DNA from: Holosporaceae bacterium
GTDB taxonomy: Bacteria; Pseudomonadota; Alphaproteobacteria; UBA3830
Direction: 5' to 3'
Length of the DNA stretch: 64,000 nt
NCBI GenBank assembly: GCA_031288795.1
Contig: JAITQS010000058.1
Span: forward strand, 23,831-87,830
Shown here: piece by piece, positions 50,458 to 64,000 of the stretch
Numbering within the stretch: position 1 is the first letter of the stretch
How the letters are laid out: every line of letters begins with the position of its first letter
Translations under genes and position numbers: made by a program
The notes under the pieces: model-generated
What the model was told of the DNA's origin: nothing
Database searches by the model: none
What the model saw: the letters and a program-made list of their open reading frames with translations, nothing else

Positions 50458-51831
50458 CTATTGCTTTCTCGATTGATTTTTAGCGATTTTATCGACCCTC
50501 TCGTTGAACTTATTTCCCGAATGTCCCTCGACCCAATGCCAAAAAACTTCATGAAGTTCCGTCGCCTTCAGAAGACGCAGCCAAAGATCTTTGTTTTTTA
50601 CCGGCTTTTTATCTGAACTGATCCAGTTATTTTTCAGCCAGCCCTGGATCCATTTGGTGATGCCGTTTTTCACATAGGTGCTATCGGTGTACAGTTCTAT
50701 TGTGCAGGGAGTTGGGAAATACTCCAATGCGGCAATGGCGGCCATCATTTCCATGCGATTATTGGTGGTATTAGGCTCGGAGCCGCATAATTCCTGCTCT
50801 TTATCGGCGCAGATAAGGAGGGCAGCCCATCCGCCGGGGCCCGGATTCCCGCTGCAGGCGCCGTCGGTGTAGATGGTTACATTTTCGAGACTATTGCCTA
50901 ATGGCTTTTTTTCGCCATCGGCTTCAGCAAATTTAGACGAATTATTTTCTTTTGGTGGGGTTATTGTTTGGGAGGCAAATTTATATTGTCCGGAAAATAC
51001 ATGCGTTGCTGATCCCGTTTGAGTGCAGTTGCCGTCGGAATCGATGTGCATCAGCAGTGATCCGCCCCGTTGAATTACGGAAATCTCGTCTGATTCCAGA
51101 AGATTATTTTTTTTGGCAACGATGGCCGTAGCCATTGCACCGCTTCCGCAGGCGGATGTCAAACCATCGGCACGTTCGAACACCAGCAGATCAATGCTGT
51201 GGGAAGAAATAATCTTTCCAAACGAAACGTTTATCCTGGCCGGAAACAATGAATTGTTTTCCAGAATGGACCCCAGATGCTGCGCCTGTTCAAGAGAAGG
51301 CATGCGCTCCACCAGCAGCACCAAATGCGGATTCCCAACGGATAGACAGGACGCCTGCCGAAGTCCCAATTGCGCTAATTTATTTTGCACATCGTTGTCC
51401 AGATGCAAATCATCGCTCAAACGGAGACTCAATGGATTCGGAACTTCTTCGGACAGTGCTAATGGCATTGGTTTTCCGAAATTTATCGAAATATTAGCAT
51501 CATCCTGCCTATGCAAAACATAAGTTCTGCTTTGGGTTTTTAGAAGAAAAGATTTTTGGTCCGGCTGCCGCATTTGCGCCAGAAGGCCGAGGCAACGGCC
51601 CGCATTTCCGCAGATTTCCGCCTCACTGCCGTCAGCGTTGAAAAAAGACGCGCTGATTGCGGCAACATCGAAGCTATAAAACGTCACCAAATCGCAGCCG
51701 ATTCCCCGAGTGCGATGGCTTACTTTTCGACAAAATTCAGCGAGATCTCCCCAATCGGCCATTTGCGTTCTGTCAATCATTACGAAATCGTTTCCCAACG
51801 CCTGCATTTTGTCAAAAACGATCCTGTTCAA
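50458..51831 (-). CDS. Fused diaminopimelate epimerase (DapF) - ribonuclease HI (RnhA)
   Basis: Dap[31 protein letters not shown]; RNase [64 protein letters not shown]; one continuous ORF. Confidence 0.93.
50887..50905. repeat. Dispersed repeat copy GAGACTATTGCCTAATGGC inside the dapF-rnhA linker
   Basis: Shares GAGACTRTTGCCTAATGG core with 17882, 36278, and partly 22511 and 26256. Confidence 0.6.
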
Positions 51832-57835: not shown

Positions 57836-58048
57836 TGCTTAGACATACCGAAAGTTAAACAAAAACCTCCCCAAAGTCAATTATAAGTATTTTGTTGATT
57901 TAGTTCTCGTCGTTTTCAAATTTTCTCATTCTATTCCCAGCCGGAATGTGCTGAAAATATACACAACCTGCTTTAAAAATTTGTTTTCAGTCAGGGCATT
58001 TTGTTTGATATTTGAGTAAAAATATTGCATTTGGGACGCGCTTTAAAA

Positions 58049-58213
58049 ATGATACCAAATCCAGAAATTGAGTGATCAGCACCAGATGGTAACGCGCTCT
58101 TATTCAGCACTTCTAAAGAACTGGCAGATCAATTTATTCTTGAATTTTTGCCTCTTCTTAAAAACTATCCGTTCATTATATCACTTCTTACGCAAGAATT
58201 AAAGACCCCCTGA
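58049..58213 (+). pseudogene. Short degraded reading frame with in-frame TGA
   Basis: MIPNPEIE*SAPDGNALLFSTSKELADQFILEFLPLLKNYPFIISLLTQELKTP*; in-frame TGA at 58073. Confidence 0.4.
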
Positions 58214-58330
58214 TGGCCCCAAAAATTTGATTAAATTTTTAGAGATTTTAATTGACTTTAACAATGATATTCGTATAGTTTCAGTGAATAGGCTTTTTTT
58301 ATTTTCGATTGCGTTCTTCAAAAAATAAAA

Positions 58331-59302
58331 ATGCGAGGTGGATCTTTGGTGCAGGAGACATTACCAAGTGGCGTTAGGTTAGATTTTTGTACTTTTTGTC
58401 AGCTTTCTTGCCCCGAATGCTCCGTTGGAAAAGGTGACTACGGCGATTTCGGAAAAGGCTACCTTAAATTCGATGATTTTGTAAAATTCGTTGAAATGAA
58501 CCCGTTTGTGCAAAGAATTGAAATCGCAAATCGCGGAGAAATTTTTCTCAACCCTGATCTGTCGAAAATCATGGAATTTGCTCATGCCAAAAATATTCTG
58601 CTTACGGCAATGAACAGCGTTAATTTCAATACCGTGTCGGACGACGTCATTGAATCCATGGTGGTTAACCAATTTCTCGCGTTATCCATAAATGTGGACG
58701 CCGTCAATCAAAAAGCCTACGAACAATATAGATACGGCGGAAACTTCTCCACAGTGATTAATAATATAAAAAAACTTTGGATATGCAAAAAAACATATTC
58801 CAGTGATCTTCCCATTGTAAATTTGCTATACCTGGTATTTAAACATAATTCTTCCCGAGAAGAACTTCGCGCCGCCAAAAAAATGGCCCAAGAACTAGAT
58901 GCAACCCTGCACTTTTGCAAGGACCGCATTTTCTACTACATCCCCGAAGATACTGACATGATCTACGAGGAAACAGGACTCACATATCCCAAAACGACAT
59001 TCGAATACGAAGATAACTTTACGAGAGCTGCCAATCCTCCGTGCCTGGATCTCTGGAAATTCCCCTCCCTAAATTACGACGGTAAGTTTCTAGGTTGCCA
59101 TTACAATGGCACTGGCATTTCCGATCTCAACGTTTTCGAACAGGGATTAAAAAAATGTTTAGAATCCGAAGCAGTGCAGAAAACGAAAAAAATGCTCCTG
59201 GGAGGGGAAATATGTGAAGAATCCCCCTGCTGTCTCTGTTGGCATTACAGACAATTCGTTTGGCACGACGCTTTCATAACCATAGACGAGATTGGAGCAT
59301 AA
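58331..59302 (+). CDS. Radical SAM protein with SPASM-like C-terminal cysteines
   Basis: CX3CX2C in CQLSCPEC; C-terminal PCLDLWKFP...GCHYNG...ESPCCLCWHYR. Confidence 0.85.
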   Translation: MRGGSLVQETLPSGVRLDFCTFCQLSCPECSVGKGDYGDFGKGYLKFDDFVKFVEMNPFVQRIEIANRGEIFLNPDLSKIMEFAHAKNILLTAMNSVNFNTVSDDVIESMVVNQFLALSINVDAVNQKAYEQYRYGGNFSTVINNIKKLWICKKTYSSDLPIVNLLYLVFKHNSSREELRAAKKMAQELDATLHFCKDRIFYYIPEDTDMIYEETGLTYPKTTFEYEDNFTRAANPPCLDLWKFPSLNYDGKFLGCHYNGTGISDLNVFEQGLKKCLESEAVQKTKKMLLGGEICEESPCCLCWHYRQFVWHDAFITIDEIGA

Positions 59303-59306
59303 AAAA

Positions 59307-61571
59307 ATGACACCATATGTAGATTTTTTTAAAGAACAATTGGAATTTAGAAAACAAGATATAGATCTACTGCAACTTATGGTCGCTGACGATATAAAAA
59401 CAGAAGATATAATAGAATTGGTACCTAAATACAAAATACACGATGAACATTTGAGTATAAATTTCATGTTATCGTCTCTTGTGTGCAGATGCTCTGATAT
59501 AAATCATCCTCTTTTGCCGAAATTTAAGGGAGTTGTGAAGTATTTTCAATATGGCAACGTGCTACTATTGGAGGGATTTCACAAAATTGGAAAAGAGCTT
59601 AATCGGCGAGATATTCCCATTCTAATGATAAAAGGACTCGCTATGCGCTATTTATATCAAAAATATCCGAGACACATGTACGATATCGATTTTGCCGTGC
59701 CCAAAAATCGTTTCGACGAAGCCGTAAAAGCCGCTGAAAATCTCGGAGCTTCCACTACATTCAAGGGACTGCACTCCATAGATATGTGCTTCGGCAATAA
59801 CATGAAAATAGATATACATTCCATAGTAGTAAAAGAAAATAGCTCCTTCGACAGCAAAATGTGGCAACAGGCCAAGAAGGTTCGAGCGTTCGGCGTGGAC
59901 GCGTTCATTCCGATTCCGGAGGATTTGATATTTCTGATTCTTATAAATTTCTATGGCAGCATGATATATGATGGTTTTTTCTGGGATACGAGTAAGTATC
60001 CGGTGTCGGCCATGAGTATTTCCTGGATGTACGACGTCGCCAACCTCGTAAAAAGTAATAACATCAACTGGAATATCGTGTTAGACAACGCAGCCCAAAC
60101 ACATACGCTCCATATGACCAAAATTCTGCTGAAAATATTTGACGAATCGCTTCCCGGTATACTTCCGCAGAACCTCCTGACACAAATGCATATGCTCGAA
60201 GATCCGGATACCAACATCAAAATAAAAAGAGATATGAAAATCATAAAACTCTTCCGAACACAAAATCAATTGCGCCAAAAAGCCAAATCCCCGGCCAATG
60301 ATAAAACCGAAAAATTATATGTATTTCAAGACCCCATATCAAATTCAAAGGAAAACGATAATGTTATGAATGAAAAACTTAAAAAATGTTTTCCAGAGCA
60401 GACTTTATCCGCAGAAAAAATGAATCACCATTGGAACAGATTGGACAGCGCCAGCTGCGAAAAAGAAAAATTTGTACGCCATCTGCATCTTGGTCCCAAA
60501 ATAGTTAAGTTGGAATGTTATCTGCCGCATATCCATGAACTCCTGGATAAGCAATTCGCCTATATCGCAAACGAAGCTAAAGGCCATTATGACATAGCCG
60601 TTCGTTTTTGGGAAGAAGATGTTGCCTCTCTCATCAAACAACTCGCCATCGATAACTGCTATTCTATGACGTATCGATCAGAAAATGACGCTGCGTCCAA
60701 AATAGAATTTTACAAACGACTAAATGTACTTAATGCCTATAATGCCCAGACGCGTACCCATTACTTTGCTTCCGGCGATATGTCGAAAAACAAAATTGTG
60801 GATTTATGGGGAGAGCATTTATTCGTGTGTTTTCTGAATAACATCATAAGCGACGCTGCCAATGCTGTATTTCACGCTGCGGCAGTGGGGATCAACGGAA
60901 ATGGCGTACTTATCTGCGGTAGAGGTGGCGCCGGTAAATCGACGCTGGCGGTGTCAGCGCTATTGGATGGATTTGAGTTTGTGTCCGAAGATTATCTTGT
61001 GCTAACCAAAGAAAATGGACTTCATGCCTATCCAATGTACTCCACATCTTCTTTGGCGCCAGGCGTGATCTCAAAAATGAACGGACTTGCATACGAATTT
61101 CTCAACGATAATTGGAACAATACAAAGCATGTAATCGATTTATCTGCCCACCATGCTGGATTTGTGGAAAAACTGCCGATAAAAGTAATAATCTTCCCCT
61201 CCATAGCCGCCGCCGAAAAACCAAGTATAGAAAAAATCAATAGAAGCAAAGCCGTAGTACAGATGGCACATTCCACCGTCTCTCAGATGTGTAGTAAAAT
61301 CCACCCTAGACACTTGAAATACGTTATACATTTCAAGGATGATCTGGAGCGTATACGCCAATTTACCTGCAGCAGCAATACAGCAGAACACATGAAGCAT
61401 ATTTTGTCGTTTATGGAAGGTTTGGATGTTTATCAAATCAATTTGTCTACAGATTTTAAAGCAAATGTAGACGTTCTACGCAAGTTTATAAATGAACTTG
61501 AGGAATCTAATTGGAACAATGAGGAGAAGATATGTATAAACTTAATGAAGAAAAAGTATTTTGCAACATAA
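59307..61571 (+). CDS. Nucleotidyltransferase (NTP_transf_5-like) fused to HPr-kinase-like P-loop domain
   Basis: N-terminus DIPILMIKGLAMRYLYQKYPRHMYDIDFAV; C-terminus GVLICGRGGAGKSTLAVSALLDGFEFVSEDYLVL; ATG at 59307 preferred over TTG at 59292. Confidence 0.78.
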   Translation: MTPYVDFFKEQLEFRKQDIDLLQLMVADDIKTEDIIELVPKYKIHDEHLSINFMLSSLVCRCSDINHPLLPKFKGVVKYFQYGNVLLLEGFHKIGKELNRRDIPILMIKGLAMRYLYQKYPRHMYDIDFAVPKNRFDEAVKAAENLGASTTFKGLHSIDMCFGNNMKIDIHSIVVKENSSFDSKMWQQAKKVRAFGVDAFIPIPEDLIFLILINFYGSMIYDGFFWDTSKYPVSAMSISWMYDVANLVKSNNINWNIVLDNAAQTHTLHMTKILLKIFDESLPGILPQNLLTQMHMLEDPDTNIKIKRDMKIIKLFRTQNQLRQKAKSPANDKTEKLYVFQDPISNSKENDNVMNEKLKKCFPEQTLSAEKMNHHWNRLDSASCEKEKFVRHLHLGPKIVKLECYLPHIHELLDKQFAYIANEAKGHYDIAVRFWEEDVASLIKQLAIDNCYSMTYRSENDAASKIEFYKRLNVLNAYNAQTRTHYFASGDMSKNKIVDLWGEHLFVCFLNNIISDAANAVFHAAAVGINGNGVLICGRGGAGKSTLAVSALLDGFEFVSEDYLVLTKENGLHAYPMYSTSSLAPGVISKMNGLAYEFLNDNWNNTKHVIDLSAHHAGFVEKLPIKVIIFPSIAAAEKPSIEKINRSKAVVQMAHSTVSQMCSKIHPRHLKYVIHFKDDLERIRQFTCSSNTAEHMKHILSFMEGLDVYQINLSTDFKANVDVLRKFINELEESNWNNEEKICINLMKKKYFAT

Positions 61572-61837
61572 CCGATGGCATAGCCATAATAATCAATTAT
61601 TTTACTGGCGTTTCCTATTCAATGAATACATTTGGTAGCATGGTGCTCGAAAAAATAATTGGTGGATATTCCCGAGACGACATTCTCGCTTTACTTAGAA
61701 ATATTACCGACATTCCATTGGACATAGATGAGAAACTCGATCATTTCATAAACGAACTCCTGCGGGCAGGTGTAATAATCATAAGTAATGAAAAAAACGA
61801 AGATGTTCCAATGTCCGGCATAAGCATAGACACCGCT
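61532..61837 (+). repeat. Direct repeat copy 1 encoding PqqD-like domain
   Basis: Aligns in frame and without indels to 62750-63055 (for example atgtataaacttaatgaagaaaaagtattttgc in both). Confidence 0.85.
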
Positions 61838-63187
61838 ATCGATTTACCCCCTATTGTCAAAAAACAGCGAAACATGAGTACAGGGAATAATGCAATTACT
61901 TCGAGTAATACTGTTATAAATATTGCTTTTTGTTTCGACGAAAATTTTTATCTGCAAGCGAAGGATTCCATAAATTCACTTCTATGCAACTCCGTTTCCA
62001 AATGCCACTACAATATGTATTGCATTGTCGATAAGAAAACCAGAGCATTACATGCTAAAGAATTGGAGAATGCGGTACGTCAGCAAGACGCAGCATCGTC
62101 GATAATTTTTTTAGAACCCAATAGTGATTTTGACCAGTCTTTTTTATGGAAAACCGTAGCCATTTATTATCGTTTTATGCTACCGATACTATTGCCATAT
62201 CTTGATAAAATCATATACGCAGATGTCGACACCATTTTCAACGCAGATCTGCTAGAAGCCAACCAAATAAATATAGGAGCCAACCTCATAGCCGGCGTTA
62301 AGGATATTGTTAATACAAGCTCGATGTGGAAATCCTTTCTGGGAAGAAATGTTTTTAAATATCTAGCTTGTGGCACCTATATAAATTCGGGTTTTTTGAT
62401 TATGAATCTAAAAGAAATACGTAACCAAAATTTATATGCCCAATGGGTGGATCTTTCGAAACGCACAGGCTATGCTTGTCCAGATCAGGACATATTAAAC
62501 TATACCTGCCACGGGAAAAAACTCTTTCTACCTTTGAAGTATAATTTTGTTCCCCAAATATACAATGACGCTCTGCAGGAAAACATATATTCTCAGGAGG
62601 AATTTACGGAAGCCACGCTACATCCGGTCATGATTCATTATGCTGGAAATGCAAAATTTCTATTAAATGGGAAGGCGTTCTTAGAATACGTAGAAAAAGC
62701 GAAAAAAAAAATTGTCAACCTAATTTGTCAGAGTTTTGAGAAAAATTATATGTATAAACTTAATGAAGAAAAAGTATTTTGCGACATAACCGATGGCGTA
62801 GCCATAATAATTAATTTTATCACCGGCGTTTATTATTCAATAAATGTATTTGGTAGCATGGTGTTCGAAAGAATAATTGGTGGATATTCTAGAGATGAAA
62901 TCCTCACTCTACTGAAAAATATTCCAAATATTCCAACAAACATAGATGAGAAACTCGATCATTTCATAAACGAACTCCTGCTAATAGGTATAATAATCGC
63001 AAATAGTGAAGAGAGCACAGACATCTCAAAGTCCGGCATAAGCATAGACGCTGCCATAGCAGCCGAAGACGATTTTGAAATGACAATTACGGAATATTCG
63101 GACATACAGGCAATGCTTATCGCCGACCCAATCCACGATGTGGAAGATTGGGAAGGATGGTCGCCTGCTTTGTCGCAGGGATACTAG
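61532..63187 (+). CDS. PqqD-like - GT8-family glycosyltransferase - PqqD-like protein
   Basis: PqqD-like MYKLNEEKVFCNITDGIAIIINYFTG...GGYSRDDILALL; GT8 DxD in IIYADVDTIFNADL; second MYKLNEEKVFCDITDGVAIIINFITG from 62750. Confidence 0.8.
   Translation: MYKLNEEKVFCNITDGIAIIINYFTGVSYSMNTFGSMVLEKIIGGYSRDDILALLRNITDIPLDIDEKLDHFINELLRAGVIIISNEKNEDVPMSGISIDTAIDLPPIVKKQRNMSTGNNAITSSNTVINIAFCFDENFYLQAKDSINSLLCNSVSKCHYNMYCIVDKKTRALHAKELENAVRQQDAASSIIFLEPNSDFDQSFLWKTVAIYYRFMLPILLPYLDKIIYADVDTIFNADLLEANQINIGANLIAGVKDIVNTSSMWKSFLGRNVFKYLACGTYINSGFLIMNLKEIRNQNLYAQWVDLSKRTGYACPDQDILNYTCHGKKLFLPLKYNFVPQIYNDALQENIYSQEEFTEATLHPVMIHYAGNAKFLLNGKAFLEYVEKAKKKIVNLICQSFEKNYMYKLNEEKVFCDITDGVAIIINFITGVYYSINVFGSMVFERIIGGYSRDEILTLLKNIPNIPTNIDEKLDHFINELLLIGIIIANSEESTDISKSGISIDAAIAAEDDFEMTITEYSDIQAMLIADPIHDVEDWEGWSPALSQGY
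62750..63055 (+). repeat. Direct repeat copy 2 encoding PqqD-like domain
   Basis: See copy 1; offset 1218 nt, a multiple of 3. Confidence 0.85.
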
Positions 63188-63189
63188 TC

Positions 63190-64000
63190 ATGATGAACGA
63201 TTTTCCACTCATCTCAGTTTTGATTCCCACTTATAATCGAGTAAAATTTCTTCCGAGTGCTCTAGACAGCGCTTTGAAACAGGACTATCCCAACATTGAA
63301 ATAATTATTGTGGACAATGGCTCCATCGATGGCACACGTGAATTAATTGCCAACGGAAATTACGGTGCGCAGGTAAAATATTTTCAGCAGGAAAATCGTG
63401 GCATAGCAGCAAGTAGAAATTCGTGCGTTGAGAAAGCATCCGGAGAATGGATCGCGTTTTTAGATTCCGACGACACCTATGCTCCTGGAAAGCTAAGAGC
63501 CCAGGCAGAATATTTTCAGAAGCATCCGGAATGTGAGATCGTGTTTACTCGCTATAAAAATTTTCTAACGGATGAAAAGTTAAAAGACATAGAACTAATC
63601 CAAGAACAGATCCAAAATGAATTGGTAATTGAACTTTGGAGCAAACATTATTTGGCATCTGCACTCCTAAAGCGTGGAATTTTTGAAAAATGCGGCAGTT
63701 TTATGAATGAGCTGAAAATTGGCGAGGATACGGAATTGCTTTTTAGAATGCAAACGATGGGAATAAATCTCAAGCATTGTCTTGAAAATCAATACTACAA
63801 TCGCTGTATTCATGGTGATAATATTACGCTAAGATATAATACAAAAAGCGTTCTAGTGTTATACAAAGAAAATGATATTCCCTACGATTTTGTTACAGAA
63901 AATCTCAAGAAAATTGTTGGAGAGAGGTACACAGCGAGCCAGTCACTAATTTCAGTAATCATTCCGGCTCGAAACGCTTCTAAATATATTCGAGACGCAA
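63190..64000 (+). CDS. Family 2 glycosyltransferase, cut by window end (second GT2 domain appears to begin)
   Basis: MMNDFPLISVLIPTYNRVKFLPSALDSALKQDYPNIEIIIVDNGS...FLDSDDTYAPGKL; near the end SQSLISVIIPARNASKYIRDA starts a second GT2 domain. Confidence 0.85.
   Translation, partial: MMNDFPLISVLIPTYNRVKFLPSALDSALKQDYPNIEIIIVDNGSIDGTRELIANGNYGAQVKYFQQENRGIAASRNSCVEKASGEWIAFLDSDDTYAPGKLRAQAEYFQKHPECEIVFTRYKNFLTDEKLKDIELIQEQIQNELVIELWSKHYLASALLKRGIFEKCGSFMNELKIGEDTELLFRMQTMGINLKHCLENQYYNRCIHGDNITLRYNTKSVLVLYKENDIPYDFVTENLKKIVGERYTASQSLISVIIPARNASKYIRDA

Follow-up and report, generated by a model that had tools for sequence, protein, structure and literature searches.

What do the enzymes of a gene cassette act on when a peptide-recognition domain is present and no precursor gene is evident? 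This question is raised by the right end of a 64,000-nucleotide stretch of Holosporaceae bacterium DNA (GCA_031288795.1, contig JAITQS010000058.1, positions 23,831 to 87,830), which is referred to as the window. Four open reading frames (ORFs) at 58331–64000 on the + strand encode a radical S-adenosylmethionine (SAM) protein, an NTP_transf_5–HprK fusion, a PqqD–GT8–PqqD protein and a GT2 glycosyltransferase. The original prediction, made from the letters alone, described them as co-directional, overlapping or abutting genes that suggest a peptide bound by the PqqD domains and glycosylated and/or phosphorylated, or else a surface-glycan locus. All ORFs were present, and the stated domains were found. 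A candidate for the peptide lies within the PqqD protein, as its C-terminal tail.

The conserved PqqD tail

Aligning the end of the second PqqD domain with its relatives exposed a 30-residue, almost unvarying tail, EYSDIQAMLIADPIHDVEDWEGWSP, with the consensus [FY]xxPxL-x-[KR][YF][ST]DMQ[DE]LLLLDP[IV]H[DE]VxxxGWP. Within the class, a profile search recovered the tail from several further alphaproteobacterial families. When one genome per GTDB species was scanned, the tail pattern matched 421 times; 197 of these matches encoded a relative of the PqqD protein, and 80 of the 197 were examined. Judged by record title, the 80 loci belong to Chloroflexota, Acidobacteriota, Nitrospirota, Bacteroidota, Cyanobacteria, Verrucomicrobia and others.

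The scan pattern demanded [DE][MIV][QA][EAD][LM]L[LIA][LA]DP, so the conservation at those ten positions is partly ascertainment. The segment IHEVxxxGWP lies outside the required positions, yet it was more conserved (3.47 bits per column in 80 distinct sequences) than the PqqD recognition domain itself (2.08). The values were 2.50 for the recognition segment, 1.17 for the part after GWP and 0.77 for the linker. Within the tail, histidine and glycine were found in 100% of the 80 sequences, tryptophan in 99% and proline in 98%. The proline of [FY]xxPxL was present in all 79 sequences having a residue in that column. In one alphaproteobacterial clade (loci L070, L075 and L076 of genomes G311, G215 and G387), the tail ended in ...DMADLLALDPPLP or similar; NTP_transf_5 and GT2 were kept, and HprK was kept in two of the three.

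No Pfam or NCBIfam model covered the tail in the 80 members scanned: PF05402 was the only notable Pfam match, and the NCBIfam matches were PqqD-type models of about 80–90 positions. The PqqD proteins with a tail are about 135–165 aa long, with PqqD as the sole domain matched. Hence, they fit the oversized set of a 2025 survey of RiPP (ribosomally synthesised and post-translationally modified peptide) recognition elements (RREs), which put 21% of PF05402 proteins above the discrete-RRE size cut-off without other Pfam annotation (PMC12710340). No free-standing tail peptide was found by an exact motif scan of 399 Pseudomonadota genomes, whose pattern misses the divergent tail of the window; the only match lay within a gene for PqqD with a tail.

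Predicted structure

AlphaFold2 models of the second PqqD domain of the window with its tail and of the protein of locus L082 showed a confident RRE fold, with a mean predicted local distance difference test (pLDDT) value of ~85. In both proteins, this fold was followed by a weaker linker, then by a [FY]xxPxL...KY strand (block pLDDT 92–94) and a short helix. The strand call of DSSP rests on hydrogen bonding and means that the [FY]xxPxL strand is paired with another one.

The top PDB matches of the AlphaFold2 model were the lasso peptide B1 proteins TbiB1 and TfuB1, both deposited with leader peptides (template modelling score 0.83–0.85 by target). YxxPxL is the motif of lasso leaders that recognition elements read (PMC10368454, PMC6784204). 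The [FY]xxPxL segment of the tail equals this leader motif, and the AlphaFold2 models pack it with confidence on its own PqqD fold. The reading of the PqqD-like domains as RREs was borne out by the PF05402 match together with the fold match. The same two matches place the domain with the PqqD-type RREs of the lasso B1 kind, and the window protein scored under the NCBIfam lasso_PqqD cut-offs.

Gene neighbourhoods

Relatives do share a conserved neighbourhood, and it extends much further than had been guessed. Of the 92 compared loci, 80 were chosen by the tail-pattern scan itself. The counts are approximate, as they rest on clustered ORFs and not on gene-finder calls, and many contigs stop near the match. 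An HprK-like protein was present in 75 of the 92 neighbourhoods, NTP_transf_5 in 68, an ABC half-transporter in 44 and GT4 in 25. Most neighbourhoods held one to six small GT2s, and the genes were usually co-directional and abutting. An ABC protein of these loci was closest to MsbA. PqqD with a C-terminal DP[IV]H[DE]VxxxGW tail, linked to HprK, NTP_transf_5 and GT2, was found in the window, in the same-genus genome G010 and in the 92-locus comparison. HprK-like–GT2 fusions occurred in L083 (6042–7868) and L099 (1881–3677) and represent a second fusion type joining cassette enzymes, next to the NTP_transf_5–HprK fusion of the window. The PqqD loci without a tail (L078, L079, L080 and L081) had neither this cassette nor a separate tail-like peptide and so gave no usable comparison.

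The original prediction had found no separate precursor. This was upheld, as clustering across the 92 loci gave no other conserved small ORF (the only repeats lay within three closely related Chloroploca genomes), and the upstream gap at 57836–58330 held unremarkable small ORFs only; but a candidate precursor or acceptor, with candidate leader and core, is the C-terminus of the PqqD protein. There was no PADLOC match, and a defence system was rejected. The few papers found on PqqD with HPr kinase in the open-access library dealt with lasso peptides, and none found there described the cassette.

Some cassettes adjoin genes resembling those for non-ribosomal peptide synthetases (NRPSs) or AMP ligases (L087, L121, L125, L137, L150 and L157). 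Several further cassette loci carry sulfotransferase-like genes, and some adjoin epimerase-like genes.

Comparison with known systems

The lasso clusters of paeninodin and pseudomycoidin are alike in having a discrete PqqD-type RRE, an HprK-like kinase, an NTP_transf-type protein, an ABC exporter and YxxPxL. In contrast to them, the cassette lacks a B2 protease, a lasso cyclase and a separate precursor, has multiple GT2s and carries the motif fused to the RRE. SynChlorMet combines HprK-like ScmC, PqqD-like ScmD and radical SAM proteins ScmE/F in a similar way, but scores were far under the cut-offs (ScmC 22.5 of 125 bits, ScmD 25.5 of 100 bits), and the signature here is GT2, NTP_transf_5 and the conserved tail. 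HPr-rel-A also has an HprK-related kinase (TIGR04352) beside a PqqD family chaperone (TIGR04353). However, TIGR04352 reached only 36.5 bits in the window and 26.4 bits in L091 against a cut-off of 200, and TIGR04353 matched 10 of the 80 PqqD members, weakly.

Mycofactocin follows a similar logic of RRE (MftB), radical SAM enzyme (MftC) and GT2 (MftF), leading to a glycosylated peptide-derived product, but no scores at the level of MftC or MftF were seen in the window cassette. Moreover, mycofactocin has a separate precursor, MftA. In borosins, one chain joins the precursor covalently to a part of the machinery that modifies it, a methyltransferase; here, the partner would be the recognition domain. 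For an RRE fused to its own recognition motif and an invariant tail, in a cassette with HprK, NTP_transf_5, GT2 and ABC genes, no library family or accessible paper was found. The parts are of known kinds, and the arrangement is new.

Proposed function and alternatives

From the architecture, the conservation, the neighbourhood, the lack of another conserved small ORF and the intramolecular AlphaFold2 docking, we infer that the tail is quite possibly the self-recognising precursor or permanent acceptor of a RiPP-like cassette, joined to the element that recognises it, and that it is phosphorylated and glycosylated. The PqqD domain would grip [FY]xxPxL of its own tail and expose DMQDLLLLDPIHEVxxxGWP to the cassette enzymes. 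The HprK-like domain may phosphorylate the tail peptide by analogy with PsmK of pseudomycoidin, and the NTP_transf_5 domain may add a sugar or nucleotide by analogy with PsmN. Extension of the glycan would fall to the GT2 domains, and in the window also to GT8. In many other phyla, an MsbA-like ABC transporter would carry the product out of the cell. In pseudomycoidin, an HprK-type kinase phosphorylates a peptide serine and PsmN puts one or two hexoses on the phosphorylated serine, although true nucleotidyl transfer was not excluded for PsmN (PMC9266682). The combination of HprK, NTP_transf_5 and RRE, which the original prediction had likened to RiPP clusters including those of lasso peptides, does resemble lasso tailoring genes, among which the kinase is responsible for phosphorylation and the NTP_transf homologue for the addition of hexoses (PMC9266682). 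With somewhat greater reserve, the loci may be regarded as a pan-bacterial RiPP-like class consisting of PqqD, a flexible linker, a [FY]xxPxL leader and a near-invariant peptide modified by HprK, NTP_transf_5 and GT2.

Several observations weigh against the tail as a substrate. It contains no invariant serine or threonine, and therefore the target of a serine kinase is not fixed: the commonest site was serine or threonine in 66 of 80 sequences, and 2 of 80 lacked both residues throughout the examined stretch. The cassette showed no protease or peptidase domain, which leaves the release of a core unexplained. RiPP cores usually vary more than their leaders, whereas here the putative core varies least of all. 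The near-invariant DPIHEVxxxGWP was left at pLDDT ~50–70 and was not packed on its own PqqD fold; its role is thus not visible in the models. In the window's genus, the proline of [FY]xxPxL is missing (F-E-M-T-I), so the recognition segment is degenerate there. In the clade of G215, G311 and G387, cassette genes are retained, yet the tail terminates in ...LALDPPLP, without IHDVxxxGWP.

An alternative reading of the same tail is a docking arm, and we consider it a serious though somewhat less probable one. The PqqD protein would be a discrete RRE or chaperone whose invariant C-terminus recruits HprK, NTP_transf_5 or GT2, the substrate would be a peptide or other molecule encoded elsewhere, and the [FY]xxPxL strand would be an autoinhibitory placeholder. 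A tail that is more constant than a normal RiPP core, exposed rather than packed and without a fixed serine or threonine suits such an arm, and a lasso B1 protein and kinase may work via protein–protein contact (PMC10368454). However, no other conserved small ORF lies near the cassettes, and the recognition motif expected to bind a leader of the substrate already belongs to the tail through covalent linkage. Three difficulties keep the docking arm close to the substrate reading: the tail is extremely constant, it has no invariant serine or threonine, and a protease is missing.

It is rather improbable that the loci serve a surface glycan or glycolipid, with GT2s, the MsbA-like ABC protein, NTP_transf_5 and HprK building and flipping the glycan and the PqqD protein as an accessory or protein primer. 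Several GT2 and GT4 genes, an ABC protein closest to MsbA and the sulfotransferase-like, epimerase-like or NRPS-like genes adjoining some loci would agree with it, but no capsule or lipopolysaccharide (LPS) model reached its cut-off among the proteins scanned, and the most constant component is an RRE with a peptide-recognition motif. Moreover, the flanks of the cassette in G010 are housekeeping-type genes. The GT2 of the window, which is cut by the contig end, scored far under the cut-offs of named LPS and capsule pathways (TuaG 100 of 400 bits). The original prediction had allowed for resolution into a known LPS or capsule cluster, and no known capsule cluster emerged from the neighbourhood. 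A degenerate lasso-peptide cluster or remnant is very improbable. The PqqD domain is nearest to lasso PqqD models, and HprK and NTP_transf_5 types occur in lasso clusters (PMC9266682). Nevertheless, a B2-type transglutaminase (Transglut_core3, PF13471) had no match in the 92%-complete genome, Asn_synthase (PF00733) had two weak matches of 21–23 bits on other contigs only, purifying selection on the cassette is strong, and no large conserved cluster among the neighbours resembles a lasso cyclase. Of the predicted bound and modified peptide, the RRE and the conserved neighbourhood stand, while modification of a peptide is a proposal.

Genes of the window

The right edge of the window is the end of the contig (87,830), which rules out an extension to the right, and the source genome comprises 1.18 Mb. 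All features lie on the + strand. The first cassette gene (58331–59302) encodes the radical SAM protein, with CxxxCxxC within CQLSCPEC and SPASM/twitch-like C-terminal cysteines; its PF04055 match (E=5e-4) was under the Pfam cut-off. An orthologue with 90% identity was present at the same position in G010 (L040), and a relative also occurred in the cassette locus L144.

The second gene (59307–61571) encodes one protein with NTP_transf_5 (residues ~73–283; PF14907, E=1.7e-20) and an HPr-kinase-like P-loop domain (~500–660; HPr-kinase C domain, E=3e-6), as found by family scans. Judged by the G010 orthologues, it probably starts at the ATG at 59307, 4 bp past the stop of the radical SAM gene, and not at the TTG at 59292 where the listed ORF opens. 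The window retains the active-site residues that are conserved among the cassettes: G115, R127, D131, D133, H176 and D248 in NTP_transf_5, and H528, the Walker-A motif GRGGAGKS (543–550) and D567 in HprK.

The third ORF overlaps the second by 40 bp. PF05402 matched two stretches of its GT8-containing protein (E=2.6e-9). The first PqqD copy (61532–61849), an RRE without the conserved tail, is a recent duplicate of the second (70% protein identity, dS 0.41). The GT8 domain (61880–62700; PF01501, E=8e-32) lies between both copies. The second copy (62750–63013) is the RRE of the conserved unit, as seen from PF05402, the alignment and AlphaFold2, and is followed by the conserved tail FEMTITEYSDIQAMLIADPIHDVEDWEGWSP at 63074–63166, with the degenerate [FY]xxPxL segment and then the near-invariant motif of the DMQDLLLLDPIHEVxxxGWP type. 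The GT2 gene (63193–64000; PF00535, E=3e-36) is cut by the contig end and probably starts at the ATG at 63193, not at the TTG at 63148, again by comparison with G010. Its intact G010 orthologue is a tandem GT2-GT2 protein.

Between the genome of the window (G000) and the same-genus G010, dN/dS was 0.055 for the radical SAM gene, 0.13 for NTP_transf_5–HprK, 0.19 for PqqD with its tail and 0.11 for GT2. The cassette genes look functional because of this strong purifying selection.

Apart from the cassette, a 457-aa ORF at 50458–51831 on the − strand reads as a putative DapF (diaminopimelate epimerase) fused in frame with an RNase HI domain.

Core and lineage-specific parts

Within the family-level sample, PqqD with the tail was patchy and found in G000, G010 and G011 only. 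The order in G010 is radical SAM, NTP_transf_5–HprK, a single PqqD with tail and GT2-GT2, with housekeeping-type genes on either side. This order is the simplest reading of two contigs that share an identical ~120-bp end inside the PqqD gene. The break (right end of L034, left end of L040) might reflect strain variation, e.g. presence or absence of a GT8 insertion. In G011, the order is HprK, GT2, PqqD with tail and GT2-GT2.

PqqD–GT8–PqqD was ruled out as a conserved architecture, as G010 and G011 hold a single PqqD with tail and no GT8 in the orthologous gene. The two PqqD copies of the window are closer to each other (dS 0.41) than the second copy is to its G010 orthologue (dS 0.64), and only the second copy has kept the tail. 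The family members G031 and G011 carry stand-alone GT8 homologues (51–55% identity) at other places. Because of the single PqqD in G010 and G011, the closeness of the copies and the lone GT8 genes, PqqD–GT8–PqqD is, by sequence comparison, a recent lineage-specific event, with GT8 inserted between duplicated PqqD copies. Accordingly, this fusion is a local oddity and does not belong to the core. The original prediction had overlooked that the second PqqD carries a tail and the first does not, as well as the recent duplication and insertion. GT8 genes are multiplied, often adjoining, in the family members G025, G030 and G036 (L015, L028, L011, L024 and L031).

Implications

In the lineage of the window, the cassette is compacted: NTP_transf_5 and HprK are fused, GT2 is fused to GT2, GT8 was captured, the radical SAM gene was added, and the cassette holds no ABC gene. 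Across phyla, the near-invariant tail points to a generally important product or partner. Should the tail prove to be the substrate, this would be a RiPP-type system missed by precursor-hunting pipelines, which seek a small separate ORF and class the PqqD protein as a chaperone. The tailed proteins give a share of the oversized PF05402 set (PMC12710340) a candidate role that can be tested. The linked HprK-like proteins and NTP_transf_5 (PF14907, 'uncharacterised nucleotidyltransferase') gain a concrete candidate substrate. So constant a peptide, if real, would point to a conserved product that acts in signalling or resembles a cofactor, and not to a diversifying antibiotic.

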